A stretch of 21,983 nucleotides of DNA from a virus (IMGVR_UViG_3300044953_000076:1-21983), one strand, 5' to 3'; counted from the stretch's first letter, positions 3,011-17,351 are shown. Notes: generated by a model not told the origin, from the sequence alone. Numbers and translations: made by a program.

Positions 3011-3018
3011 TATTTATA
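3011..3018 (-). promoter_or_regulatory. T4-type late promoter box for the tailspike gene
   Basis: The minus strand reads TATAAATA exactly, the consensus -10 element of T4-like late promoters. It sits in the 42-nt gap between the 203-residue protein gene and the tailspike, 22 nt upstream of the tailspike ATG. Two other exact copies in this window lie at nearly the same distance from start codons. Confidence 0.7.
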
Positions 3019-6507: not shown

Positions 6508-6515
6508 TATTTATA
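6508..6515 (-). promoter_or_regulatory. T4-type late promoter box
   Basis: An exact TATAAATA on the minus strand lies in the 57-nt gap upstream of the 84-residue protein (distance to ATG 23 nt). The transcript would start near 6502 and carry a short leader with an AGAGAGA ribosome-binding tract. It would drive the 84-residue protein and the downstream fibre genes. Confidence 0.75.
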
Positions 6516-7113: not shown

Positions 7114-7121
7114 TATTTATA
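7114..7121 (-). promoter_or_regulatory. T4-type late promoter box overlapping the end of the cassette
   Basis: An exact TATAAATA on the minus strand overlaps the stop codon (7117-7119) of the last gene of the radical SAM cassette. It is 20 nt upstream of the ATG at 7094, with AAAGGA in between. The downstream virion block can therefore be transcribed independently of the cassette. Confidence 0.75.
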
Positions 7122-7512
7122 TAAAAAATTCAGCCTTATAATAACTTCTTATATCTGGTATTATACCTTTATTTTCATTAAAAGGTGTAATTTTTTTTAA
7201 TATTTCATCATAAGTATATGTATCTTCATTATAGATTTTAAAATAGGGATCATTACCATATAATAAATCTTTGTCATTTAATAATTCTATAAAATCTTCG
7301 CCGAAATCTTTTGACAGCCAATGTGCATAACATATGGCCACTACATAACTTTTAGAAGGATATATAAAGCCCATATCTTTATTAAAAAAATATTGTATTG
7401 CATTTTCAATTATATCTTTAGAAAATTGTATTTTTATTTTATTTAAATCGTCAGCGTAATCATTATTTAACTTATGATATAACGCTTGCCTGATTTTCCA
7501 TTCTTTTACCAT
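7117..7512 (-). CDS. Unrecognised 131-aa protein, last gene of the modification cassette
   Basis: A 131-residue protein with ATG at 7512. It overlaps the preceding radical SAM gene by 41 nt, and no clear ribosome-binding site precedes this ATG, so the start is uncertain. The sequence is predicted mostly helical at the N-terminus (residues 1-75, with 'FSKDIIENAIQYFFNKDMGF' and 'YVVAICYAHWLSKDFGEDFIELL'). The C-terminal half is acidic and Tyr-rich. There is one cysteine and no metal-binding motif. I do not recognise the family. Its position as the final, overlapping member of the radical SAM/oxygenase operon suggests it belongs to that system, for example as a substrate-binding or accessory protein, but nothing in the sequence proves it. 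AT-rich composition matches the enzyme genes. Confidence 0.6.
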   Translation of the reverse strand: MVKEWKIRQALYHKLNNDYADDLNKIKIQFSKDIIENAIQYFFNKDMGFIYPSKSYVVAICYAHWLSKDFGEDFIELLNDKDLLYGNDPYFKIYNEDTYTYDEILKKITPFNENKGIIPDIRSYYKAEFFI

Positions 7513-8416
7513 AGTAGTCTAGTAATCCTTTATATCCATTACAACTATTATTCAAATCTTTTACATAACGATAATGTTCTGTTAAACAATGGCCATAATA
7601 TTTACAATTTTTACAAATATCTGATATGTTTTTTATAGGTTCATTATCTGCCCATTTTAAATAATCTTTAAATGACTTTAATTCTAAAAAATATTCTTTA
7701 TCGTCTTTATCAAATTCCAACACACCAAAATTACCATTAGGTGTTATATAGACATGATTATTTGAAAATGCGTTATATTGTTTATTTAAACTTTTAATTA
7801 TTTTACCTTCATTTATAAAATCAAATTTTTTCTCTACTTTACTTTCAATCCATTTTTGCACAAATAATTCAAAGTCTTTATGTGTCACAGATTGTTTATT
7901 TGCTTGATTTATCGAGTAAGGTTTTATTTCTACACTTTCAATGCTTGAACATAAATTAAGTTTTTTAATCATCTCATCTACATTCATACTTATTACCTTT
8001 TCACTTGCTAATATTAACACTGCAATAGGCACCGTACTTTGAAACATATTATTATAAACTAAATCAGATTTTTCTCTGGCTTCAAAATCATAACTTACGC
8101 TTAAATAAAAATCATTTTTAAAAAATCCTTCATGTAGCATTGAATAATTTGTTATTATATTTATTTTATCTTTATAATATTTACGAATAATATCTTTCAG
8201 ACCATAAAAATAATCTTTTTTTAAAGCGCCTATTTCTCCACCATATAAATCAACCCATTCTATAATTCTTACTTTACTTATTTCTTTTAATTTTTTATCT
8301 AATATAGGTAAAGGTATTTTTTTTTGATCACTCAATTGTTGAGATGTTAAATAACAAAAGTTACATCTAAAATTACAAAAATAACTAGGATTTATAGAAA
8401 TAATTATTTTATTCAC
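7472..8416 (-). CDS. Radical SAM protein D, reduced SPASM/twitch-type (314 aa)
   Basis: The radical SAM motif C14-x3-C18-x2-C21 binds the catalytic [4Fe-4S] cluster, and YGGE (58-61) is the SAM-amino-group motif. The C-terminus has C268-x2-C271-x5-C277 and C292, four cysteines enough for one auxiliary cluster. The usual upstream SPASM cysteines are absent: the equivalent 'TPNGNFGVLEF' segment (225-235) has none. It is therefore a reduced SPASM or twitch-like enzyme. The start is a GTG at 8416 that overlaps the previous stop (GTGA). The family acts on peptides or small molecules by hydrogen abstraction from the substrate. The substrate here is unknown, but proximity suggests the Cys-His-Xaa-Ser tail of the 177-residue protein or another modified virion component. 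It overlaps its neighbours on both sides. Confidence 0.85.
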   Translation of the reverse strand: MNKIIISINPSYFCNFRCNFCYLTSQQLSDQKKIPLPILDKKLKEISKVRIIEWVDLYGGEIGALKKDYFYGLKDIIRKYYKDKINIITNYSMLHEGFFKNDFYLSVSYDFEAREKSDLVYNNMFQSTVPIAVLILASEKVISMNVDEMIKKLNLCSSIESVEIKPYSINQANKQSVTHKDFELFVQKWIESKVEKKFDFINEGKIIKSLNKQYNAFSNNHVYITPNGNFGVLEFDKDDKEYFLELKSFKDYLKWADNEPIKNISDICKNCKYYGHCLTEHYRYVKDLNNSCNGYKGLLDYYGKRMENQASVIS

Positions 8417-8934
8417 TTTGTTAATCTTTCATTTATGTAATAATTAAAGCTTGCAACACGTCTAGGTAATTTTAATTTAAGAGGTGTAACAATATGTTCA
8501 AATTTCATACTTTGATTCATTATAATAATATCATATTGTTGAGGATAATAATTAATTAACTCTTTTTTAGTTTCAGTTTCTCTAAAACAAATAGCGCCTC
8601 CTATATCTTCATCCATTGTATCAAAGTATGCCAAAATACAAAGATTAGGTCCTTCTACTAAATCATTATGCCACATCAATGTAGCATTATCTATACCATT
8701 TACTAATTCTATTTTATCGGCAAGTTTGTAATTTTTATCAATTTGTTTTACACATTTTTCACCTAAATATTTTTGTATATCTAATAATTGATTTTCAATT
8801 AATTTTTCTTTTTTACAAATTTGTAAACTCAAATTTTTATCTTCTATCCATTTGACGTTATCTAAATTTATAAATTTAATAACGCTTTTATCATTTTCTA
8901 TAATATAACCTTGTGTTAAAAAATTATCCAGCAT
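8413..8934 (-). CDS. 2OG-Fe(II) oxygenase-like protein 2 (173 aa)
   Basis: The protein carries the iron- and 2-oxoglutarate-binding set of the double-stranded beta-helix dioxygenases: H89-x-D91 (in WHND), a distal H147 (FEHIV) and R158/R159 (PRRVASF) for the 2OG carboxylate. The stretch 'LAYFDTMDEDIGGAICFRE' is the expected strand region with a GG turn before a Phe-rich strand. The family hydroxylates or oxidises side chains of peptides, proteins or small molecules using O2 and 2OG. The start overlaps the upstream radical SAM gene by 11 nt (ATGCTGGATAA), and its stop overlaps the next start. 2OG oxygenases are common in T4-like marine phages, but here two such genes alternate with radical SAM genes. 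The first 60 residues are helical and of unknown role. Confidence 0.8.
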   Translation of the reverse strand: MLDNFLTQGYIIENDKSVIKFINLDNVKWIEDKNLSLQICKKEKLIENQLLDIQKYLGEKCVKQIDKNYKLADKIELVNGIDNATLMWHNDLVEGPNLCILAYFDTMDEDIGGAICFRETETKKELINYYPQQYDIIIMNQSMKFEHIVTPLKLKLPRRVASFNYYINERLTK

Positions 8935-10024
8935 TTACACTTTCATCAATATAAGGCGTTAACTCAATATTATTTAGACCATTTGCTTTTAATACCTTTG
9001 GAGCAATACTTTTCATAATTTTACAATGTTCTTCTACAACATTATGTTTTTTAAAATCTTTAATAGTCTTTCTACAACCATTACATATATTAAACATTGG
9101 ACACTCAAAACAAGCTCTTTTCATACTATATAAATTCATATCGGTTTGTAATGGTTTAAAAAATTCACCATTCATTTCTCTATCAAAATCAATTGATTTA
9201 TCTTTATCATCACCAAAAGCTCCACAAGAATAATAATCTCCACTAGGATTTAATGCACGTATACCTTCATCACACTTTCTATTTTGAGGACAAAGAGTAT
9301 ATTTACCCCTTACTCTTTTCATCATTTGTTTAGTATTAAATTCCCAATGATAAAAATTTTTTTCCCATATTTCTACATACTTTTGATATATCTTACTTAA
9401 CAAATATGGTTTATCTTGTTCACCACTGGCCATAGCATAGTTTAATTTACACTCTACACCTACTTTACTTGTCTTTAGTAAGTCGTGTGTTGTGCCATAA
9501 GGCATTTTACCGTCAGACATTTTAAAAGCTAACTCTACGTTTTTTAGTGCTAGATGTTCATTTTCGGGAACAATTACAGCAATAAAATCAGGCCTATAAC
9601 CGCAATATTCTAACATAGTATCTGAACATTTCCAAAAATCTTCTTCTGTAAATTCAGAGTAATCACCCTTTAAACGGCCACCGCCATATTGAAAAGATGT
9701 GTTAACTCCTACTCTATCATTATTAAATAGATTTGCCCATTTTTTAGGTTTCTTATAAAAAGGCCATAGATTAGTTGTAAGTGATATTGACGTATTATAT
9801 TCGTGTTCATCTAACCAATCAATTATTTTCCAATAATAATCTGGTTCTACCATTAATGGGTCACCACCATTTACTATAATTGTTTTTGTATGAGGAAATC
9901 TTTTTAAAAAACGAAAAATATAATTATGATTTAACAAATCACTTTTGTGCATAGCAATTTTAGTGCTAGAACAAAATGTACATTTAAAATTACAGGCTTC
10001 AGTAGGTTTAATAATTAAGTCCAT
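8924..10024 (-). CDS. Radical SAM/SPASM protein C (366 aa)
   Basis: The classic motif is C11-x3-C15-x2-C18, with NGGDP at 52-56. The C-terminal third has a full SPASM-type set: C245, C251, C267, C305-x2-C308-x5-C314-x2-C317 and C334, enough for two auxiliary [4Fe-4S] clusters. SPASM proteins mostly modify ribosomally made peptides (anSME, PqqE and sactisynthase families, for example). Residues 106-122 (NTSFQYGGGRLKGDY) form an unusual Gly-rich loop after the barrel strand 'LTTNL'. The ATG at 10024 shares its A with the preceding stop (TAATG), so it is coupled to the upstream 2OG oxygenase, and it overlaps the next oxygenase gene by 11 nt. This radical SAM gene therefore lies between two oxygenases. 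The substrate is not identified. Confidence 0.9.
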   Translation of the reverse strand: MDLIIKPTEACNFKCTFCSSTKIAMHKSDLLNHNYIFRFLKRFPHTKTIIVNGGDPLMVEPDYYWKIIDWLDEHEYNTSISLTTNLWPFYKKPKKWANLFNNDRVGVNTSFQYGGGRLKGDYSEFTEEDFWKCSDTMLEYCGYRPDFIAVIVPENEHLALKNVELAFKMSDGKMPYGTTHDLLKTSKVGVECKLNYAMASGEQDKPYLLSKIYQKYVEIWEKNFYHWEFNTKQMMKRVRGKYTLCPQNRKCDEGIRALNPSGDYYSCGAFGDDKDKSIDFDREMNGEFFKPLQTDMNLYSMKRACFECPMFNICNGCRKTIKDFKKHNVVEEHCKIMKSIAPKVLKANGLNNIELTPYIDESVNAG

Positions 10025-10602
10025 TATACTATAATTGCTTTTGTGTTTGGTTGATCTTTAACTTTATAACCTAAAACTAAAGACGTTCTAGGACTTTCAC
10101 CAAAATATGGTTTTACTCTATGCACTAAAAAACCAGGAAATATAATCAGTCTGTTTGGTTTAGGTAAAATGTTTATGGCGTTATTAGGGTATTCTGCAAA
10201 AGTTAAGTTTTTATATATTGTTAATTCTCCGCCAATCCATTTTTCATTATTAAAATCACTACGTAAATAATAAATAGCTGTGATATAAGAACTTTCAACC
10301 ATATCGTGATGTGGTTCGTATAGATGATTTGTTACTTTTGATACATCATATTTTTTTAAATAACCTTTTTGAAAGTTAGACAATTCTAAATTTTCAAAAT
10401 CAATATTGTTTTGAATACAATAATTAACAACAGTTTTTTTTACATATAACTGAAATGTCTTTTGACTAGGCGTAAAATTAAATATATCTTGGTTTTTAAT
10501 TGTAGTGTCTATATTGCTTTCTTTTTTTAATTGATTGATTAAAATTTCATCAATCAAAAAATTATCTATTATATTAATAGTATCTGTAAATTTAATTTGC
10601 AT
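10024..10602 (-). CDS. 2OG-Fe(II) oxygenase, prolyl-hydroxylase-like (192 aa)
   Basis: The frame opens with a TTG at 10638, 47 nt into the upstream gene, but the ATG at 10602 gives a more natural 192-residue protein beginning MQIKFTDTINIIDNFL and an 11-nt overlap (ATGCAAATTAA). With that start the P4H-type iron motif is H98-x-D100 (in EPHHD), the distal His is H161 (LVHRV) and the 2OG-binding Arg is R172 (ESPRTSLVLGY). Between them is the diagnostic 'YITAIYYLRSDF...WIGGELTIY' followed by 'IIFPGFLVHRV'. These match prolyl-4-hydroxylase-like phage proteins. Such enzymes hydroxylate protein or peptide side chains. It lies between the GNAT-like gene and radical SAM C. The oxygenase call is confident; the substrate is unknown. 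Confidence 0.88.
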   Translation of the reverse strand: MQIKFTDTINIIDNFLIDEILINQLKKESNIDTTIKNQDIFNFTPSQKTFQLYVKKTVVNYCIQNNIDFENLELSNFQKGYLKKYDVSKVTNHLYEPHHDMVESSYITAIYYLRSDFNNEKWIGGELTIYKNLTFAEYPNNAINILPKPNRLIIFPGFLVHRVKPYFGESPRTSLVLGYKVKDQPNTKAIIV

Positions 10603-11164
10603 AACGTATATAATACTTATCTTGTTTTTTAAAACCAAATTGTTGCATTATTTCTCTATGATATGGCTCTTTTTGTATTCTCATTTGATTCATCACTAAA
10701 TGTAAATATTCTAAATAAGAACCAGTAGGTATAATTAATTTATAATTTTTAAATGTTTTTACAATATCAGAATACATTTTCCTAATAAATTTACGTATTT
10801 CGGTTTTTGGTCTTTGTTTTAAAACACCAGAATATTTTATACTTCCTATTATTATTTCGTTTTCATATATGTGTAACATAGCCACACCTTTTTCTAATTT
10901 CCATTCATTTGTACAAGTTACCCATTGTTCTTCATTTTTATTTTTTAAAGTTTGTTCATATATATCGGCATCTGTTTCTTTTGTTCCCCACCAAATTAAA
11001 AATAAAGCTTGTTTATCGCATATTCTAGGTACGAAAGGATGTTTTATAGGTAAATTATCTAATATAATATCTACGTTAGGTATATCTACTCTAATAAGCG
11101 ATGTAGTTTCTTTGTAGTCGTACATCTTCGATATATCTGTGCGTAAGTTTATAGACACACTCAT
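10592..11164 (-). CDS. Unrecognised 190-aa protein, possibly GNAT-like
   Basis: The start is the ATG at 11164, 74 nt inside the end of radical SAM B. It is chosen because a strong Shine-Dalgarno (GAGAGGAG) lies 4 nt upstream; the next Met at 11125 has no comparable site. The sequence is mixed alpha/beta: 'QALFLIWWGTKETDADIYEQTL', a strand pair 'VAMLHIYENEIIIGSIKY', a basic helix, and an ending 'EIMQQFGFKKQDKYYIRY'. The last phrase, and the 'I-I-I-G-x-I' strand, resemble the end and core of GNAT acetyltransferases ('x-x-x-F-G-F-x-x-x-x-Y-Y-x-R-Y'). The acetyl-CoA-binding loop R/Q-x-x-G-x-G/A is not clear, so this is only a suggestion. If correct, acetylation could be an additional tailoring step. 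It could also be an unrelated fold. Confidence 0.6.
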   Translation of the reverse strand: MSVSINLRTDISKMYDYKETTSLIRVDIPNVDIILDNLPIKHPFVPRICDKQALFLIWWGTKETDADIYEQTLKNKNEEQWVTCTNEWKLEKGVAMLHIYENEIIIGSIKYSGVLKQRPKTEIRKFIRKMYSDIVKTFKNYKLIIPTGSYLEYLHLVMNQMRIQKEPYHREIMQQFGFKKQDKYYIRYAN

Positions 11165-12143
11165 CTAACTCCTCTCTATATCTATAATCGTGATTCATAA
11201 AACAGCCTAAAGTACATCTATCTAAAAACTCACAAGAAACACAATTATATTTTTCTAAAAATTTGTTTTCAATAATACTATTATCCATACGTTTAATAGG
11301 AGACTTGTACATACTTAAAGATTTTTTATCTTGCACTAAATTACCACACATACATAATGTGCCATCAGCTAATACTAACTTACTTACTCTACAAGAAGAA
11401 TAATTTTTTTTATTAAAAATCCAATCTTTTACAGGATGTACATTTGGATAATTATCAACACAATGCTTAAAAAACTTTAATAATAATTCATCACTTGGCA
11501 TATTAAATTTAGCGTGTTCATCTGGCATATAGTAATCAAAATAAATGTATTTACCATTATTGTAAAGATAATCAAAATAATCATCACCGTTATTTAAATA
11601 ATGCTCTATATTAGGTTTAGTTAATAAACAAGAAAAACAAGTAACTCTATCTCCAAAATAATCTACATTACTTTTAAATATTTCAAATTGTGCTTTATTA
11701 AAACGGCCTCTTGGATCGTATGAAGTTGAAAGTCTTGTAGGTATATTATTATCTTTAGAATGCTTTAATAAATCTTCTATTTGTTCTATGCCATTTTTAT
11801 TTGTAACTAAATTAGATACCCAATTTATTGAATACAACTTATTATATTTTTTTGCTATTTGAGATATGCCTAAAGATAATTGTTTATAAGCTTCATTTAA
11901 TTCTTTTGTATAAATGCTTGGTGCAAATACTTCACCACCCATTATATTTAAAGTAATTTTATTTCTAAATTCTCTACTTATGAATTTTTCAATAGGCTCT
12001 AACTTATTTAAAACTGTGTCTATACCTATTTTATCTTGGTGATTTTGCCAACAAAAAGCACAACTTAGATTACAAAATTCAAATAAATGAATTGTATATT
12101 CTTGCTCAGGATCTCGTTTAGGCTCAATGATAAATTCTCTCAT
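11091..12143 (-). CDS. Radical SAM/SPASM protein B (350 aa)
   Basis: The radical SAM motif is C24-x3-C28-x2-C31 after an unusually long 23-residue lead, and MGGE is at 68-71. SPASM-type cysteines are C251, C264, C266, C301-x2-C304-x5-C310-x3-C314 and C329. The pattern 'C-V-S-C-x(5)-C-x-x-x-C-F' is the usual end of the SPASM domain. The barrel segments 'NWVSNLV' and 'STSYDPRGRF' align by eye with 'GITSNLV' and 'GTSWDPKIRF' of radical SAM A, so A and B are paralogues. B probably acts on a peptide or protein substrate encoded nearby. It starts 6 nt after an unknown 367-residue protein and overlaps the GNAT-like gene by 74 nt. AT-rich composition matches the cassette, not the virion genes. Confidence 0.9.
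   Translation of the reverse strand: MREFIIEPKRDPEQEYTIHLFEFCNLSCAFCWQNHQDKIGIDTVLNKLEPIEKFISREFRNKITLNIMGGEVFAPSIYTKELNEAYKQLSLGISQIAKKYNKLYSINWVSNLVTNKNGIEQIEDLLKHSKDNNIPTRLSTSYDPRGRFNKAQFEIFKSNVDYFGDRVTCFSCLLTKPNIEHYLNNGDDYFDYLYNNGKYIYFDYYMPDEHAKFNMPSDELLLKFFKHCVDNYPNVHPVKDWIFNKKNYSSCRVSKLVLADGTLCMCGNLVQDKKSLSMYKSPIKRMDNSIIENKFLEKYNCVSCEFLDRCTLGCFMNHDYRYREELDECVYKLTHRYIEDVRLQRNYIAY
11169..11176 (-). promoter_or_regulatory. Strong ribosome-binding site that sets the 190-aa gene start
   Basis: The minus strand reads GAGAGGAG, then TTAG, then the ATG at 11164. It lies within the coding sequence of radical SAM B. It is among the best Shine-Dalgarno sequences in the cassette, where most genes rely on overlapping stop/start codons, so this gene may be translated more strongly than its neighbours. 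Confidence 0.65.
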
Positions 12144-12149
12144 TAAGGC

Positions 12150-13253
12150 CTATATAAGTTGATATTTACTTAAAGCCTCAATATTGTTGTTTCTTTTTAA
12201 ATTAAAAATGTGTTGTATTAAAACATAATTAATATTTTGAAAATCAAATTTAGGCACTAAACAAGTATCAAAGGGATTTTCGACAACAAAGTTGAGCATT
12301 GTATTCATTTCATCGTTCGTAATATTATCTTTAACAGCTAATTCTAAATAATCAAAAGTGCTAAACATTGTTTTATTAATGGCCATTCCCTCCACATCAT
12401 TATAAATTTTTTTTATTAAATTTCTTAAACCTGTTATTTTTTCTTGCGATAAATTTTCTATTTTACAAATACCATAAACGCCTTTACCATAATCATCTTT
12501 TTGCTCCCATATAGTTTCATCAGCATAATATTGTAAAGAACTTACATTTTTAATGGGATTATTTGAATTTAAATCTAAATCATTTTCTGTAAAATTTAAA
12601 GTTAATTGAAAATTTTTATTTAATAAATTCATTAATATCATTTCTCTATTGTCTGTAAAAGCTTCTTTAAACCATCTTCTTAAAAATTTATGAACAGTTG
12701 TATTTAATTTATTAATATGATTAGAAGAACCACTAAAATAATTTGCCAATAAAAACTCGTAAGAAAGATTTAAATTTAAATTTTTTATTGAATTTCTTTG
12801 TTCATTAGATATTGTAATTTCATTAAATAAATTATTTAAATTACCTAATCCTTCCCATAATTGTTCCATATTTAAAACATGTATAGGCTTTAATTGCGTG
12901 TTGTTTATGATTCTTTCTTTTAATATGGTTAATTGTAAAATTTTATTAAATGTATTTAAATCTAAATTTACAAAAATAGTTTTTAACCAATTAATTAAAA
13001 ACTTATTAAAATTATCTTTGTCTGCATATATTATGAATTTTTTATTTAAAGTATCTACATAATTTTTAATTTGTATTATTAATTCAGAAAAATTATCAGG
13101 CAAAGTTTTATAATGGTTTAATAAAATACCTTTTTGTATTTTTTTCAAATATTCATCCATAATATTGCCATAACGGCCTATTACGACTCTATCTATATCC
13201 GTTTGAATAAAATCGTCTAAACTTAAATATACTTTATCGAATAAATGTATCAT
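12150..13253 (-). CDS. Unrecognised 367-aa largely helical protein of the cassette
   Basis: A 367-residue Asn/Leu/Lys-rich protein. The first 30 residues are strand-like ('MIHLFDKVYLSLDDFIQTD' followed by 'DRVVIGRYGN'), and the rest is mostly helical with repeated 'N-x-L-N/I-K' segments. The C-terminus (about 255-330) has 'YGKGVYGICKIENLSQEKITGLRNLIKKIY' and 'FSTFDYLELAVKDNITNDEMNTML'. There are only two cysteines, no metal-binding motif and no membrane span. The ATG at 13253 shares its A with the stop of the previous gene (TAATG). I do not recognise the family. Its place between the candidate substrate and radical SAM B suggests a recognition, scaffold or chaperone role, but that is inference. 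Composition is very AT-rich (9 G+C in the 60 bases at 12601-12660). Confidence 0.75.
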   Translation of the reverse strand: MIHLFDKVYLSLDDFIQTDIDRVVIGRYGNIMDEYLKKIQKGILLNHYKTLPDNFSELIIQIKNYVDTLNKKFIIYADKDNFNKFLINWLKTIFVNLDLNTFNKILQLTILKERIINNTQLKPIHVLNMEQLWEGLGNLNNLFNEITISNEQRNSIKNLNLNLSYEFLLANYFSGSSNHINKLNTTVHKFLRRWFKEAFTDNREMILMNLLNKNFQLTLNFTENDLDLNSNNPIKNVSSLQYYADETIWEQKDDYGKGVYGICKIENLSQEKITGLRNLIKKIYNDVEGMAINKTMFSTFDYLELAVKDNITNDEMNTMLNFVVENPFDTCLVPKFDFQNINYVLIQHIFNLKRNNNIEALSKYQLI

Positions 13254-13933
13254 TAAATTTTTAAACCTTTTAATGTAGATTCTCTAGCTTGTATATATTC
13301 TTTACCTTTACCATTTGCAATTGACCAAGTTAAAAGAAACAATGGATTTTTATCATTTGCCCAATATTCAAACATATTTTTACCTCTAAACATGTAATCA
13401 TTAAAATAATGAGTATAAAACTTTAATTTATCATTATTTATTTTTTTATAATAACCGAAAAACCTAGTATGTTTTAAAAGACTTATAAAGTTAACACCTT
13501 CTAAATCTTGTGTATCATCTTTAGTGTATGATTGTGCGTAATTTCTAAAATCGTCAGAATTTAACATATACATATTATATAAAGATAAACTTTCTAATTT
13601 GTTCTGCCATTTTTCTAATATTTCAAAATTTTCTGAAATAAATTTATTAAAATTTTCATTTTTAGCAAGCCCTTTCATAACGAAAAGAATGTCTATTACT
13701 ACATTTTCTAAGTAAGATATATTTACAAGAGATACTGAGTGAAGATAATCTTTTACTAAATCTAAATCAATATTTTTCAAATCAGCGGGTATATCTAAAT
13801 TACTTAAATACGTAATTAATTTTTTTCCTTTTAAATCACTTATTGAATAATCTATTAAATAACTTACATCTTTTTCTGTAAAATTCTTTTTTAAATCTTC
13901 AATAGATATGGGTGCTTTTGTTTCAATAATCAT
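13253..13933 (-). CDS. Unrecognised 226-aa helical protein next to the candidate substrate
   Basis: A 226-residue mostly helical protein with no cysteine. It begins MIIETKAPISIEDLKKNFTE, followed by 'VSYLIDYSISDLKGKKLITYLSNLDIPAD', then long helices. The C-terminus is aromatic and basic ('FFGYYKK', 'FYTHYFNDYMFRGKNMFEYW'). The ATG at 13933 shares its A with the stop codon of the 177-residue Cys-His-Xaa-Ser protein (TAATG), so both are likely made together. It lacks a signal peptide, transmembrane helix or recognised enzyme motif. Because it is translated directly after the candidate substrate, a chaperone, leader-binding or particle-attachment role is plausible. I do not recognise a family, and no winged-helix RRE signature could be confirmed by eye. 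Confidence 0.72.
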   Translation of the reverse strand: MIIETKAPISIEDLKKNFTEKDVSYLIDYSISDLKGKKLITYLSNLDIPADLKNIDLDLVKDYLHSVSLVNISYLENVVIDILFVMKGLAKNENFNKFISENFEILEKWQNKLESLSLYNMYMLNSDDFRNYAQSYTKDDTQDLEGVNFISLLKHTRFFGYYKKINNDKLKFYTHYFNDYMFRGKNMFEYWANDKNPLFLLTWSIANGKGKEYIQARESTLKGLKI

Positions 13934-14466
13934 TATCTTCTACTCCTACTGCCGTGGCAAGAACTGTGACAACTTGAATGGCAAACTTCTATTGTTTCAG
14001 TTACCGTTGTTGTTCTTATATTATTATAAGCGGTTGCTATATTTGAAAAATATGTTTCCAATTTAGTGTCATCTATTACAGACCCGGCCGTTATATCTGT
14101 CGCTGTTATGGCTCCTAAAGCGGCTCTATCGCCTGTATCTAAATGTGCCACTTGTGTATCATCAAAAACTGTGCCTGTTCCTGTAATATTTTTTATAGCT
14201 CTTTGTTGACGAATATTTGTATATAATGCAGCTTCAGTTTCTAAAACATTTTTTATTGTTGTCGCTGTAATAATTGTGCCTGATATATCTGCACCTGTAA
14301 TATTTAAACTATCGCCAGCTGTTGTGCCTCCGTAACTTGCGTCAGGCATTTCTGCAAAAGGTTTACTATCTGTTCCCCACACTATACCAGTATTTGCCAC
14401 ATCAGTAACTAAATCTTCAAACTTATCAACAATACCTTGTTTAGATATTGGGTTGGATATTACCAT
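13933..14466 (-). CDS. Virion-style protein with C-terminal (Cys-His-Xaa-Ser)3 tail; candidate modification substrate
   Basis: A 177-residue protein. Residues 1-160 are fibre/virion-like: Thr/Ala/Ile-rich, no cysteine, with 'FEDLVTDVANTGIVW', 'SLNITGADISGTIITATTI' and 'IDDTKLETYFSNIATAYNNIR'. Residues 162-177 are entirely different: CHSSCHSSCHGSRSRR, three Cys-His-Xaa-Ser units (C162, C166, C170; H163, H167, H171) then a basic end. All the cysteines of the protein are there. It is encoded between radical SAM A, whose 3' end overlaps its start by 26 nt, and an unknown gene that starts on its stop codon. I infer that the body is a leader or particle anchor and the tail is the core modified by the neighbouring radical SAM enzymes and oxygenases. 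The repeat recalls the His-Xaa-Ser (Hxs) precursor proteins. An alternative is an unmodified metal-binding tail. Confidence 0.85.
   Translation of the reverse strand: MVISNPISKQGIVDKFEDLVTDVANTGIVWGTDSKPFAEMPDASYGGTTAGDSLNITGADISGTIITATTIKNVLETEAALYTNIRQQRAIKNITGTGTVFDDTQVAHLDTGDRAALGAITATDITAGSVIDDTKLETYFSNIATAYNNIRTTTVTETIEVCHSSCHSSCHGSRSRR
13948..13983 (-). repeat. Three tandem Cys-His-Xaa-Ser codon units
   Basis: Residues 162-173 of the 177-residue protein are three 12-nt units encoding CHSS, CHSS and CHGS. The codons are not copies: Cys is TGC/TGT/TGC, His CAT/CAC/CAC, the third position TCA/AGT/GGC and the last Ser AGT/TCT/AGT. The protein repeat is kept while the DNA has diverged, including use of both the TCN and AGY serine families. 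Confidence 0.85.
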
Positions 14467-15487
14467 ATTTTATACCTAATTTTAACTCTTTCATTAAACT
14501 TTTTGGTGCGCCACAAATATCACTTTGCCAAGCAAGTTGGTGACAATCACCTCCACAAAATTCAAAAACTTCACAAGAGAAACATATTGAGTTTCGAGCA
14601 CGTTCACAAGCGATGTTTTCTATTCTAATAGGACTATTTATAACAGATTTTATATCGTCTTTTATATGACCAAATTGAAATTCAGGTGCAGAATTAGGGC
14701 ATCCTGATATTGTGCCATCAGCATTTAATGTAAATATTTTTTGTTCACAATCTCTACAAAAAGTACCACCTTTTAAGAATCCTGTTTCAAACTTATTGTA
14801 TATAACCTCTAATGTTTCGTTATCAAACCAACTTCTACAATCATATTCTTTTGATTGGTGGTGCATTTTTAAAAACCATTTATCTTGTTCAATATTATCA
14901 GGAAATATTTCAGGATGTAATTTTGCATTTCCATTACCTGTTAGCCTTTCAAACGAAACCTCCTGCACACCTAAATTTTTTATCCATTGTAATATTTTAA
15001 TTGGCTCCATAGAAATGGTATCTTTTGTAACGCTGATAAACAATTTTATAGTAACGCCTTTAGATAATAAATCTCTTACATTTTTTTCCCATAAATTATA
15101 TTGTTTATCGTTTTCAAATCTTATTTTAGGATCCCAACTTGTGCCCATACGATTTTTTAATGGGCCTGAAATAAAATCATAATGTTCTTTTTTTAATTTA
15201 AAAACTAAATTAGATGTAATGCCAAAAGTACTATTTTTCCATAAATCTTTACACTCATTATAAAATTGATACATATGTGATACTGGCGCTAAAAAAGGTT
15301 CTCCTCCGTGAAATTCAAAATGTATTGTATCTTTTTCATTTTCATAATTTTGTCTAAATCTTTTTACAAAATCTATTGTTTGTATAGGATTAAAATAAAT
15401 TTTAGCGCCGTTTATACCGTTTGTAAAACAATGTTTACAGTTTAATTGACAAGTTTCAGTTGTTTTTATATAAAACATCCAATTCAT
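14441..15487 (-). CDS. Radical SAM/SPASM protein A (348 aa)
   Basis: The radical SAM motif is C13-x3-C17-x2-C20, with HGGEP at 60-64, the form typical of SPASM peptide maturases and anaerobic sulfatase-maturating enzymes. The C-terminus has C244, C247, C263, C294, C302-x2-C305-x5-C311-x3-C315 and C325, a full two-auxiliary-cluster SPASM set. The ending 'CEVFEFCGGDC' and 'CGAPKSL' closely follows the anSME/SPASM pattern. Its last 26 nt overlap the start of the 177-residue Cys-His-Xaa-Ser protein, making it the enzyme most tightly linked to that candidate substrate. It begins 1 nt after the cupin/JmjC-like gene. A by-eye resemblance to HxsB-type maturases is possible but unproven. A peptide-modifying radical SAM enzyme is the confident call; the chemistry is not predictable. 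Confidence 0.92.
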   Translation of the reverse strand: MNWMFYIKTTETCQLNCKHCFTNGINGAKIYFNPIQTIDFVKRFRQNYENEKDTIHFEFHGGEPFLAPVSHMYQFYNECKDLWKNSTFGITSNLVFKLKKEHYDFISGPLKNRMGTSWDPKIRFENDKQYNLWEKNVRDLLSKGVTIKLFISVTKDTISMEPIKILQWIKNLGVQEVSFERLTGNGNAKLHPEIFPDNIEQDKWFLKMHHQSKEYDCRSWFDNETLEVIYNKFETGFLKGGTFCRDCEQKIFTLNADGTISGCPNSAPEFQFGHIKDDIKSVINSPIRIENIACERARNSICFSCEVFEFCGGDCHQLAWQSDICGAPKSLMKELKLGIKYGNIQPNI

Positions 15488-15488
15488 T

Positions 15489-15938
15489 TTAATATCCTAT
15501 ACTTAAAGCCCAAGTAAATGGTGAACTTTCAACTCTATGTTTTGCACCTTTAGGTATAAAAATTGCTTGTTCTTCTTTAACTATTATTGGACAATTATCC
15601 GTATAAATTTTTTTGTTGCCTTTTATAACACATAAAAGAACGTTTAAATCATCTGTGTGTTCTGGAAAAGAAAATCCACCAAATTGATTATAAAATAAAT
15701 GCACGTTTTTAATTTTAAAATTTAAATCATATTGTTTTAATAATGATAGATGATAATTATTATCTTCTAAACCTTCTACTTTTATGTGTGGTATATTTTT
15801 ATAATTTTTTACCCAATTGCTAAAAGTTACTTCACTTTTAACTTTATAGTCTTTTCCTTTTTTATCTATATAAATTATTTGATTATTTTCGTATCTTGTA
15901 TAAGATATTAATTCATCATTTAATGCTGCAATTAACAT
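15489..15938 (-). CDS. Cupin/JmjC-like Fe(II) protein (149 aa), first gene of the cassette
   Basis: The C-terminal half is a small cupin. 'FGGFSFPEHTDD' gives H94-x-D96, then 'LLCVIKGNKKIYTD' (the G-x-K strand) and 'EEQAIFIPKGAKHRVESS' with the distal H134. This H-x-D...H set with IPKGxxH matches the metal site of JmjC/cupin_4-type hydroxylases and related cupins, so iron binding is likely. A separate 2OG-binding Lys or Arg is not certain; K110 is a candidate. Such proteins hydroxylate peptide or protein residues. The gene is the first of the cassette, 24 nt after the fibre gene, and its ATG follows an 18-bp palindrome with no clear Shine-Dalgarno. The next gene, radical SAM A, starts 1 nt after its stop. 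Confidence 0.78.
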   Translation of the reverse strand: MLIAALNDELISYTRYENNQIIYIDKKGKDYKVKSEVTFSNWVKNYKNIPHIKVEGLEDNNYHLSLLKQYDLNFKIKNVHLFYNQFGGFSFPEHTDDLNVLLCVIKGNKKIYTDNCPIIVKEEQAIFIPKGAKHRVESSPFTWALSIGY

Positions 15939-15939
15939 A

Positions 15940-15957
15940 CTGTAATATTTATTACAG
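15940..15957 (-). promoter_or_regulatory. Perfect 18-bp palindrome with late-promoter-like box at the head of the cassette
   Basis: The bases read CTGTAATA-TT-TATTACAG, two 8-base arms around a 2-base centre, ending 2 nt before the ATG of the cupin-like gene. The minus strand contains AATAAATA (15946-15953), one mismatch from the late consensus TATAAATA. It could be a dimeric-protein operator, a near-leaderless late promoter (only 8 nt from the ATG versus 20-23 for the others), or a hairpin covering the start. No U-tract follows, so it is not a typical terminator. Confidence 0.55.
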
Positions 15958-15962
15958 CAAAA

Positions 15963-17351
15963 TTATAATATAACCGCTTCTATCAGACCTTTTTGATTAT
16001 CTTCAAGAGCTATAGCAAAAACTTTTTTAAATTCATCACTTATTTTTGCAGCAAAACCACCATTACCTGCAACTAACTCATCACCTTTTTTAATTTCACC
16101 TACTACTTTTATTAAAACACGACCTTTTAAAGCTATCGATTGTCCTTCTGCTTTAGCATTCATTAAGAAAGCAGGTTTATCGGATATAACTCCTAGTGCT
16201 CTATGTCCTATAAAACATTCTGTTACCTCTTGTGAACCTCCAATCATAACAACAGTGCCTACATCATAAACTTTATCTGTTTTAAAAATTTCAGCTAAGT
16301 CAGCATAATTAGCCTGACTAGCAGTTGTAGATAAAACGTTTGTATTAGGATTATAAGTTAAATCAGTATCAGTTTTTAAAGATTGACTACCTGTTGCACC
16401 TGCTGAGAAAGTTATAAAATTTGCGGCAGAAGTAGTATTATCTGCTGTCAATGTTATTGTTGATGCTGTGCCTCCTGAACCAGTAATAGTTGTAGCATTT
16501 AAAGTATTTACGGTTAAAGTATCTGCACTTAAATTTAATTTTGCAGCTCTAATTGTTGCGTCAGCAATATCATCATTTACAATTGTTGCATTAGCAATCA
16601 TAGTACTTGTAACTGTTCCAGTATCACCTGACGTAATAACTGTGCCTGTAATATTAGGTATTGTAATTGTTCTATCAGCCGTTGGGTCTGTGACTGTTAG
16701 TGTTGTTTCAAAAGCATCATCAGTAGCGCCTTCAAAAACTATACCACCTGAAGTTAAATTTAAACTTGTTCCTTGTAGTGTGCTAGAAAATGTACCTGTT
16801 GTACCAGCAACTGCTCCTGAAAATGTACCTGTTGTACCAGATACTGCACCTGAAAATGTGCCTGTTGTACCAGATACAGCACCTGAAGAATTTAATGAAG
16901 TTACTGTAGCTGCTCCAGATTGAAATGTACCTGTAGTAATTAAATTTTCATCACTAAAACTTATACTACCTGTTGAACTTGTTATTAATCCTGAAGATAT
17001 GGATATCGTGCTTACGTTTAATGCTGTTGTGATATTAACAGTAGGTGTTAAACTTATCGTTAAAGTGTCAGTAGCACTTACCACTGCATTAATTTGATTT
17101 GACGTTCCAAAAACATTTAAAGTTTGTCCAGCACCTATAGCTTGAATTGATGAACTTGAATCTCTGATTATCCAACCAGCAGCAGAAAAAGCAACACCTG
17201 CAATTTCTACAACAGCACCGCAAATAGATGTAGCTGATAAACCTGCACCAGCTAATGTAGATGGGTCGCCAAAATCAGTTTGAGTTAAAGTATTTAACTT
17301 AACTCGCATTTGTTCTAGTGTATCAGTGGTATTAATTACTGTAAATGCCAT
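15963..17351 (-). CDS. Tail-fibre protein with internal 33-nt repeats and conserved C-terminal domain (462 aa)
   Basis: A 462-residue fibre protein. The N-terminal region has 'TDTLEQMRVKLNTLTQTDFGDP', a coiled-coil-like start common in marine phage structural proteins. The middle is Thr/Ser/Gly-rich, with three tandem 11-residue GAV(S/A)GTTGTFS units at about 156-188 and, at about 205-240, the fibre module FEG-x(4)-AFETTLTV-x-x-PT-x-DRTIT-x-PN-x-x-GTV shared with the 128-residue protein. The C-terminal about 120 residues form a separate globular domain: 'YADLAEIF', 'YDVGTVVMIGG', 'ALGVISDKPAFLMN', 'ALKGRVLIKVVGEIKKGDELV'. From memory this domain recurs at the ends of T4-like cyanophage and pelagiphage structural proteins. 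It is the last gene before the radical SAM cassette, 24 nt away. Confidence 0.85.
   Translation of the reverse strand: MAFTVINTTDTLEQMRVKLNTLTQTDFGDPSTLAGAGLSATSICGAVVEIAGVAFSAAGWIIRDSSSSIQAIGAGQTLNVFGTSNQINAVVSATDTLTISLTPTVNITTALNVSTISISSGLITSSTGSISFSDENLITTGTFQSGAATVTSLNSSGAVSGTTGTFSGAVSGTTGTFSGAVAGTTGTFSSTLQGTSLNLTSGGIVFEGATDDAFETTLTVTDPTADRTITIPNITGTVITSGDTGTVTSTMIANATIVNDDIADATIRAAKLNLSADTLTVNTLNATTITGSGGTASTITLTADNTTSAANFITFSAGATGSQSLKTDTDLTYNPNTNVLSTTASQANYADLAEIFKTDKVYDVGTVVMIGGSQEVTECFIGHRALGVISDKPAFLMNAKAEGQSIALKGRVLIKVVGEIKKGDELVAGNGGFAAKISDEFKKVFAIALEDNQKGLIEAVIL
16786..16884 (-). repeat. Three 33-nt tandem repeats inside the fibre gene
   Basis: Units 16786-16818, 16819-16851 and 16852-16884 differ at only a few bases and encode GAVSGTTGTFS-type blocks. 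They keep frame, so they lengthen a fibre shaft by 11 residues per unit. Copy number is likely to vary between related phages. Confidence 0.85.

Follow-up and report, generated by a model that had tools for sequence, protein, structure and literature searches.

A recurring radical SAM cassette of jumbo phages and its probable substrate, a virion-type protein with a Cys-His-Xaa-Ser tail

Results

The 21,983-bp virus record IMGVR_UViG_3300044953_000076, which is probably a fragment and is referred to in its whole length as the window, raises the question of what four radical S-adenosylmethionine (SAM) enzymes do between the tail fiber genes of a marine phage. Nearly all genes of the window are on the minus strand, and 12 of them form the cassette considered here. 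In the order of transcription, from 15938 down to 7117, the cassette encodes a cupin/JmjC-like protein, rSAM_A, a 177-aa protein ending in a Cys-His-Xaa-Ser repeat (the CHxS protein), fam226, fam367, rSAM_B, fam190, 2OG-1, rSAM_C, 2OG-2, rSAM_D, and fam131. The content is thus four radical SAM proteins, two 2-oxoglutarate (2OG)-Fe(II) oxygenases, one cupin/JmjC-like protein, four proteins of no assigned function, and the CHxS protein. The original prediction, made from the sequence, had described an overlapping 12-gene cassette encoding a system that resembles those for ribosomally synthesized and post-translationally modified peptides (RiPPs) and that either modifies a structural protein or releases a peptide. 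All 12 open reading frames (ORFs) were found on the minus strand where it had placed them. Ten of the 11 gene junctions overlap or lie within 1 nt, the remaining one being a 6-nt gap, and the GC content falls from ∼33% to 24% over the cassette. Our analysis indicates that the cassette is probably a dedicated post-translational modification system, the product of which would be a virion or fiber decoration at the Gram-negative surface, and that the CHxS protein is very probably its substrate.

Recurrence of the whole set together with the Cys-His-Xaa-Ser protein had been named beforehand as the test of this prediction, and the set passed it. A collection of 50,697 phage records was searched by tblastn with rSAM_A, rSAM_C, and rSAM_D separately, and each enzyme matched the same seven records, which represent the jumbo phages Atu_ph07 (two records), Phosso, FLC6, FLC8, SURPRISE13, and DT01. 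These phages fall into unrelated groups, T4-like Rak2-type and phiKZ-like, and share a near-identical gene order with the window; sequence identity is 50 to 64% for rSAM_C and 44 to 51% for rSAM_D. In all seven records, the gene directly after rSAM_A encodes a protein of 178 to 306 aa that ends in CHxSCHxSCHx[S/A]R[G/S]RR. Searches of phages by tblastn with the whole CHxS protein or with its tail gave no matches, as the body is divergent and filtering removes queries that are short and repetitive, and a degenerate DNA pattern for the tail was used in place of the protein queries. This pattern had at least 119 matches in viral contigs and 19 in the genome collection. Nearly all of the viral matches terminate exactly at R-x-R-R-stop, and those carry the enzymes. 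Where a match continues beyond RxRR, no cassette gene accompanies it, and such matches serve as an internal negative control.

The linkage was also approached from the enzymes. Two scans of IMG/VR, in which the tail was not used, returned 361 relatives of rSAM_A and 320 of rSAM_C, and 80 loci of each were kept for inspection of the tail. Among the loci found by rSAM_A, 75 reach the relevant site and every one of these encodes CH..CH..CH..R.RR. The tail is present in 56 of the 80 loci found by rSAM_C; the other 24 stop before the site or, in the split architecture described below, before the tandem block. Across the tails found via the enzymes alone, the Cys and His residues and the R-x-R-R end are invariant, and the fourth position of the repeat is mostly Ser, otherwise Asn or Ala.

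A comparison of 42 regions of 17 to 31 kb provides the composition of the set. rSAM_A is present in all 42 regions, rSAM_B in 41, and the cupin, fam226, rSAM_C, and rSAM_D in 40 each. The CHxS gene is found in 39, fam131 and some 2OG gene in 38 each, fam367 in 29, and fam190 in 8. For the three regions that lack the CHxS gene, it is present at another place in the contig. The core is retained through inversion and splitting in the 42 contigs, and the distances among rSAM_A and among rSAM_C proteins are correlated (r = 0.80, 0 of 999 permutations). It is virtually certain that this gene set and its linkage represent one recurring system.

In a second phage architecture (L268-L274, L006, L017, L023, L038, L050, and L060), the cassette is divided into two blocks, and the core block is sometimes inverted. 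These phages have two tandem CHxS genes of 124 to 140 aa and up to five additional radical SAM genes (rSAM_E), the motif of which resembles CxxxCxxC, yet the core is kept (L268-L274). A 151-kb contig (L060/L074) holds both architectures. An IMG/VR contig of 222,888 bp (L030) also carries the cassette.

The CHxS protein itself (13933 to 14466, minus strand) consists of a predicted folded body and a predicted disordered tail. Its last 16 residues (13936 to 13983), CHSSCHSSCHGSRSRR followed by a stop, contain three C-H-x-S units and then R-x-R-R and are the proposed site of modification; the Cys-His-Xaa-Ser tail of the original prediction is therefore real. In the AlphaFold2 (AF2) model, the body is confident, with a predicted local distance difference test (pLDDT) value of 88, and the tail is at 54 to 66. 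The mean pairwise identity is 84% over the last 16 residues and 36% over the body, which varies from 110 to 290 aa among homologs. By sequence, the tail rather than the body is what is maintained, and therefore one common job for the tail on differing carriers would be expected. This is the reverse of most RiPP precursors, which have conserved leaders and variable cores. No conserved acidic residue is found in the tail. Counting phage tails together with those of Bdellovibrionota (see below), Gly occurs 57 times at position His+1 and never at His+2, which is Ser, Asn, or Ala. Since Gly has no C-beta, this exclusion is what would be needed if residue +2 reacted at its C-beta.

Several observations bear on where the CHxS protein resides. 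The cassette is flanked by a fiber-type gene (15963 to 17351, minus strand), the product of which has a tail fiber PHROG match and a C-terminal ADLAE-type domain, and by further fiber genes below 7100. Among 40 phage regions, 24 encode the same domain just upstream of the cupin gene, no more than 1.5 kb away; the CHxS protein is also kept in the other 16, which include FLC6 and DT01. In a study of Atu_ph07, 131 virion proteins were identified by mass spectrometry (MS), most of them from CDS 31-76, 170-215, and 284-329 (Attai et al., PMC6102473). With the numbering checked against the portal protein gp198 and the prohead core protein gp204, the CHxS protein is gp170; its FLC6 counterpart is gp72. 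In Atu_ph07, gp170 is the first gene of the virion MS cluster CDS 170-215, and rSAM_B, rSAM_C, and rSAM_D are outside of it. The "virion-style" label initially given to the CHxS protein is a fair one, as its AF2 fold matches Atu_ph07 gp170 and other phage proteins; the body fold found no match in the PDB. Matches in a viral structure library were a DT01-like 178-aa protein, the Atu_ph07 296-aa protein, and larger proteins of Myoviridae sp. ctijX18. The latter three (BFVD A0A8S5USJ7, A0A8S5USJ8, and A0A8S5USV2; 504-660 aa) contain the CHxS body fold with TM scores of 0.51 to 0.57, and because they share it, the modeled fold may be a general virion module. Taken together, we find it likely that in phages the CHxS protein is located in the virion or at the fibers.

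The cassette is not confined to phages. It is also located in chromosomes of Bdellovibrionota, a phylum of predatory bacteria. Five contigs from Bdellovibrionota-type metagenome-assembled genomes (MAGs) carry cassette genes, and where their flanks were inspected, the neighbors are bacterial genes (catalase-peroxidase, histidine kinase, cbb3 oxidase, P-type ATPase, and TldD). rSAM_C was found at E<1e-40 in 18 of 369 Bdellovibrionota genomes, in one case on a 4.15-Mb contig (L361-L379; G001, G004-G007, G391, G395, G421, G424, G425, G429, G430, G448, G450, G451, G532, G693, and G710), and fam226 occurs in Bdellovibrionota as well. The phage and bacterial rSAM_C proteins form two separate groups (support 95/86). 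In five loci, a protein ending in an S74 chaperone domain adjoins the cassette, and two of these proteins begin with a type IV pilin methylation motif. The Bdellovibrionota tails vary in spacing and Cys content (CHGNFPPPCHGSRGRR, CHTNVPTPPPCHASRGRR, CHSNHCSHSNHGSRGRR, and CHSSHSSHSSHSSRGRR); H-x-[S/N/A] units and the RxRR end are near-universal in both tail sets. One tail, WCHSSHSSHSSHSSRGRR (L378:4282 region, G451), looks intermediate between CHxS and HxsA-type repeats; that contig may be phage because an ADLAE gene adjoins.

Motifs and Pfam matches place the cassette enzymes in the radical SAM/SPASM and 2OG-Fe(II) oxygenase families, as originally called. The four radical SAM proteins match Pfam Radical_SAM with E values of 3e-4 to 4e-7 and phrog_1802 with E values of 1e-27 to 8e-67 (3e-41 for rSAM_B), and CX3CX2C is present and invariant in all four. 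rSAM_A (348 aa, 14441 to 15487, minus strand, as are all genes that follow) contains the full seven-Cys SPASM pattern CX9-15GX4C..CX2CX5CX3C..C, which is at least 95% invariant, and among its relatives of solved structure are two modifiers of peptides or proteins, the sulfatase-maturating enzyme and YydG. Its nearest NCBIfam model is the ranthipeptide maturase PapB (E 7e-13; 48 bits against a cut-off of 340 bits). rSAM_B (350 aa, 11091 to 12143) and rSAM_C (366 aa, 8924 to 10024) are radical SAM/SPASM proteins with SPASM-like Cys sets, and C24/C28/C31 and the auxiliary Cys residues of rSAM_B are invariant. For rSAM_C, the most conserved enzyme, the nearest NCBIfam model is the dynobactin maturase DynA (E 2e-10; 40 bits against a cut-off of 450 bits). 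rSAM_D (314 aa, 7472 to 8416) has a shorter set resembling that of one auxiliary cluster, with C11/C15/C18 and C265/C268/C274/C289 invariant.

Of the two oxygenases, 2OG-1 (192 aa, 10024 to 10602) matches PF13640 with E 2e-9 and 2OG-2 (173 aa, 8413 to 8934) matches it more weakly (1e-3), along with phrog_19592 (E 1e-12); HxD...H is found in both. The cupin/JmjC-like protein (149 aa, 15489 to 15938), encoded by the first gene of the cassette, matches Cupin_2 (E 1e-5), and the DT01 homolog matches JmjC_2 (E 3.5e-8). Across 40 homologs, the residues H92-x-D94...H132 are at least 95% invariant; by sequence they resemble a JmjC/2OG triad and make the protein a putative Fe(II) enzyme. The last gene encodes the core member fam131 (131 aa, 7117 to 7512; phrog_20737, E 7e-44). 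fam226 (226 aa, 13253 to 13933) is predicted to be mostly helical with a confident fold (AF2 pLDDT 94) and no fold match in the PDB; it is possibly a substrate-recognition or scaffold protein. fam367 (367 aa, 12150 to 13253) has no Pfam or PDB match, and profile searches with fam226, fam367, and the CHxS protein against PDB sequences gave only spurious weak matches.

Discussion

How might these proteins act together? Late in infection, the radical SAM enzymes would modify the C-terminal His-x-[Ser/Asn/Ala] units, each of which normally follows a Cys. The Fe(II) oxygenases would assist, and the core proteins of no assigned function would perhaps contribute recognition or scaffolding. The finished CHxS protein could then be mounted on the virion beside the tail fibers, where its tail would act at the Gram-negative cell surface in adhesion or penetration, a role that we regard as plausible, at somewhat less than an even chance. 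The chemistry that appears best suited to the tail is a His-to-C-beta cross-link inside each H-x-S triplet, as in the triceptides and dynobactin; Cys thioethers could also occur, as could extra hydroxylation by the Fe enzymes. The cross-link is favored because His+2 is never Gly, because radical SAM enzymes are known to join His to C-beta (dynobactin, HaaB, and YhhB; PMC11002830), and because rSAM_C is nearest to DynA. By this analogy, the assignment is tentative.

Several points weigh against the proposal. The virion evidence is indirect, as it depends on the boundary of the Atu_ph07 MS cluster. The 2OG genes, present in most regions, are missing from the Phosso and Atu_ph07 cassettes, and oxygenation is therefore accessory. 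Because some Bdellovibrionota tails have no Cys or have two H-x-S/N units, a single fixed product is unlikely. The similarity of the sequences to DynA and PapB is far below the curated cut-offs, and the reaction is therefore not transferable by homology. Lastly, radical SAM chemistry is sensitive to oxygen, and its operation in marine hosts that are aerobic calls for an explanation.

Other explanations of the locus have to be weighed against modification of a virion protein. The enzymes could prepare His and Cys ligands so that the tail becomes a metal-, heme-, or Fe-S-binding device or a redox-active tip. A Cys-His pair that occurs three times at four-residue spacing, cassette enzymes that are Fe-dependent throughout, and a tail that, going by the model, may be disordered until ligated would all suit such a device. 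However, the Bdellovibrionota tails CHSSHSSHSSHSSRGRR and CHGNFPPPCHGSRGRR have lost Cys and kept H-x-S/N, and ligation alone leaves the preference for Ser, Asn, or Ala at His+2 and the exclusion of Gly unexplained; this explanation is unlikely. The dibasic RxRR end, the RiPP-like operon, and the resemblance of the SPASM enzymes to peptide maturases recall an antimicrobial or exclusion peptide that cleavage would release from the CHxS protein, and release of a peptide was one half of the original prediction. Searches of Pfam, NCBIfam, and PHROG and the comparison of the 42 regions found no exporter, immunity gene, or clear protease family in the cassette, and the tail is near-invariant over hundreds of phages, unlike diversifying antimicrobials. 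Furthermore, the cassette always accompanies virion or fiber genes where the flank is seen, and the modeled body is a large folded domain. With a body of 110 to 290 aa that folds, a near-invariant tail, and no obvious protease or exporter, the other half of the prediction, in which a structural protein is the target of the RiPP-like system, is the better fit, and release of a peptide is quite improbable.

A further possibility is that the system acts on another virion protein, for example the neighboring ADLAE fiber protein, with the CHxS protein serving as a carrier or as a partner of the enzymes. The adjacency of an ADLAE gene in 24 of the 40 regions is in line with this, but the remaining 16 keep the CHxS protein without such a neighbor, and a tail that is both invariant and unstructured is what a substrate typically has; we consider this possibility very unlikely. 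The authors of the DT01 and CP220 reports proposed roles in DNA repair or metabolism (PMC8541153, PMC2853527), and by extension the enzymes could serve auxiliary metabolism or nucleotide or DNA modification, the CHxS protein being a passenger. This is highly improbable given the linkage to one tail motif without exception, the SPASM architecture, and the location at fiber genes, and CP220 has no ortholog of rSAM_A, rSAM_C, or rSAM_D by tblastn. Nor does the locus look like a DNA hypermodification or auxiliary metabolic gene cluster, as it lies between genes of the tail fiber type and its enzymes are nearest to peptide maturases.

Several known systems are close to the cassette. Hxs (HxsA TIGR03979, HxsB TIGR03978, and HxsC TIGR03977) also pairs a His-x-Ser repeat protein with radical SAM maturases, and the Bdellovibrionota tail CHSSHSSHSSHSSRGRR resembles the HxsA repeats. 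However, the HxsA repeats are internal, have neither Cys nor an RxRR end, and precede a C-terminal region resembling a peptidoglycan-binding domain; the cassette has four core radical SAM enzymes and Hxs has two. Membership in Hxs was rejected on this tail layout and on the models, TIGR03979 being found in 0 of 67 CHxS proteins, with HxsC at 31 bits against 268 and HxsB at 24 against 370. The triceptide and dynobactin maturases DynA, HaaB, and YhhB install His-to-C-beta or Tyr-to-His cross-links over i/i+2, which is the H-x-S spacing; their substrates are short diversifying precursors, unlike the ∼177-aa protein with an invariant tail found here. A dynobactin or darobactin maturase was rejected on the DynA score given above and on DarE (24 against 650 bits). 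The Cys at every fourth residue recalls the CX3D and CXXX repeats of the PapB ranthipeptide and CXXX-repeat maturases, from which the CHxS tail differs by having no conserved Asp acceptor. These systems were rejected on the PapB score, on the CXXX-repeat score of 29 against 350 bits, and on the lack of a conserved acidic residue. In the broad sense, in which tailoring enzymes are strictly linked to a ribosomal substrate of their own, the system appears RiPP-like by its sequences. Apparently it is a new class among dedicated radical SAM maturases with a ribosomal substrate, and its use on a virion or fiber protein appears to be new.

Since 2010, reports of radical SAM gene arrays in phages have called them "highly unusual" and assigned them to metabolism or DNA repair (PMC2853527, PMC8541153). 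Among jumbo and T4-like phages, such arrays are noted without a substrate in pelagimyophage MAGV3, 332-Vera, and DT01 (PMC8541153), in S13/FLC6 and TARA EVG, and in CP220 (PMC2853527), and some sit in a structural or host-recognition region, as the cassette does. DT01, FLC6, and S13 (SURPRISE13) have exactly the same cassette. Campylobacter phage CP220 was rejected as a relative, its radical SAM enzymes being unmatched by tblastn and those in the inspected part, the first 50 kb, being dispersed; they probably represent a different system. Eleven radical SAM genes are reported for CP220, two of them in the first 50 kb near sugar-metabolism genes. We found no paper that names the CHxS protein or a substrate for the reported phage arrays, and a PMC search for the tail string CHSSCH gave no relevant paper among the matches listed.

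The cassette offers an explanation for the unexplained radical SAM arrays of several jumbo phages. For the arrays of DT01, the FLC6 group, and Atu_ph07/Phosso, and for those of hundreds of phages from metagenomes, it supplies a probable substrate and a testable product, and peptide chemistry gains at least four radical enzymes aimed at a defined target of 16 residues. If the proposal is correct, we know of no earlier case of dedicated multi-enzyme radical chemistry that serves a virion protein.

Sharing of the cassette with Bdellovibrionota suggests a common chemical answer to the recognition or breaching of Gram-negative envelopes. Bdellovibrio recognizes its prey with S74 fiber proteins, the mosaic adhesive trimers (MAT), and S74 fiber-type proteins adjoin the cassette in Bdellovibrionota; predator and phage both contact Gram-negative envelopes. 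Unlike the cassette, MAT consists of fibers and is not a modification system, and its report makes no mention of radical SAM (PMC10769870). A surface role is favored because predators and phages both must grip and breach such envelopes. With considerable reservation, we propose that one system, in separate phage and bacterial enzyme lineages, is common to predatory bacteria and to phages of Gram-negative bacteria. It would place a cross-linked His-x-Ser/Asn tip, made by radical enzymes, on a surface fiber-associated protein to grip or breach the target envelope, as an attachment or penetration device with no known counterpart.

Two features of the original prediction did not hold. A possible GNAT at 10592 to 11164 (fam190, 190 aa) has no match in Pfam, NCBIfam, or PHROG. 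A flanking late promoter had also been described, and the T4-type late promoter motif TATAAATA does occur on the minus strand at 3011-3018, 6508-6515, and 7114-7121, 14 to 23 nt upstream of the gene starts 2989, 6485, and 7100. Its count of 5 is not above the 8.5 expected by chance, none precedes the first cassette gene (15938), and the motif was rejected as the driver of the cassette.

T4-type portal genes occur on at least nine contigs of the public MAG Rhodobacteraceae bacterium Water_Bin34 (G003; L133, L137, and L143), and because the bin is phage-rich, its CHxS genes are probably phage genes. In Burkholderia phage FLC6, gp77 and gp78 (L003:18319-19532), annotated as dihydrofolate reductase, are located inside the cassette between rSAM_B and rSAM_C. 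Between the fiber gene and the cupin gene of the window, an AT-rich inverted repeat, CTGTAATA-AA-TATTACAG (15940 to 15960, minus strand), is possibly a regulatory or processing site.

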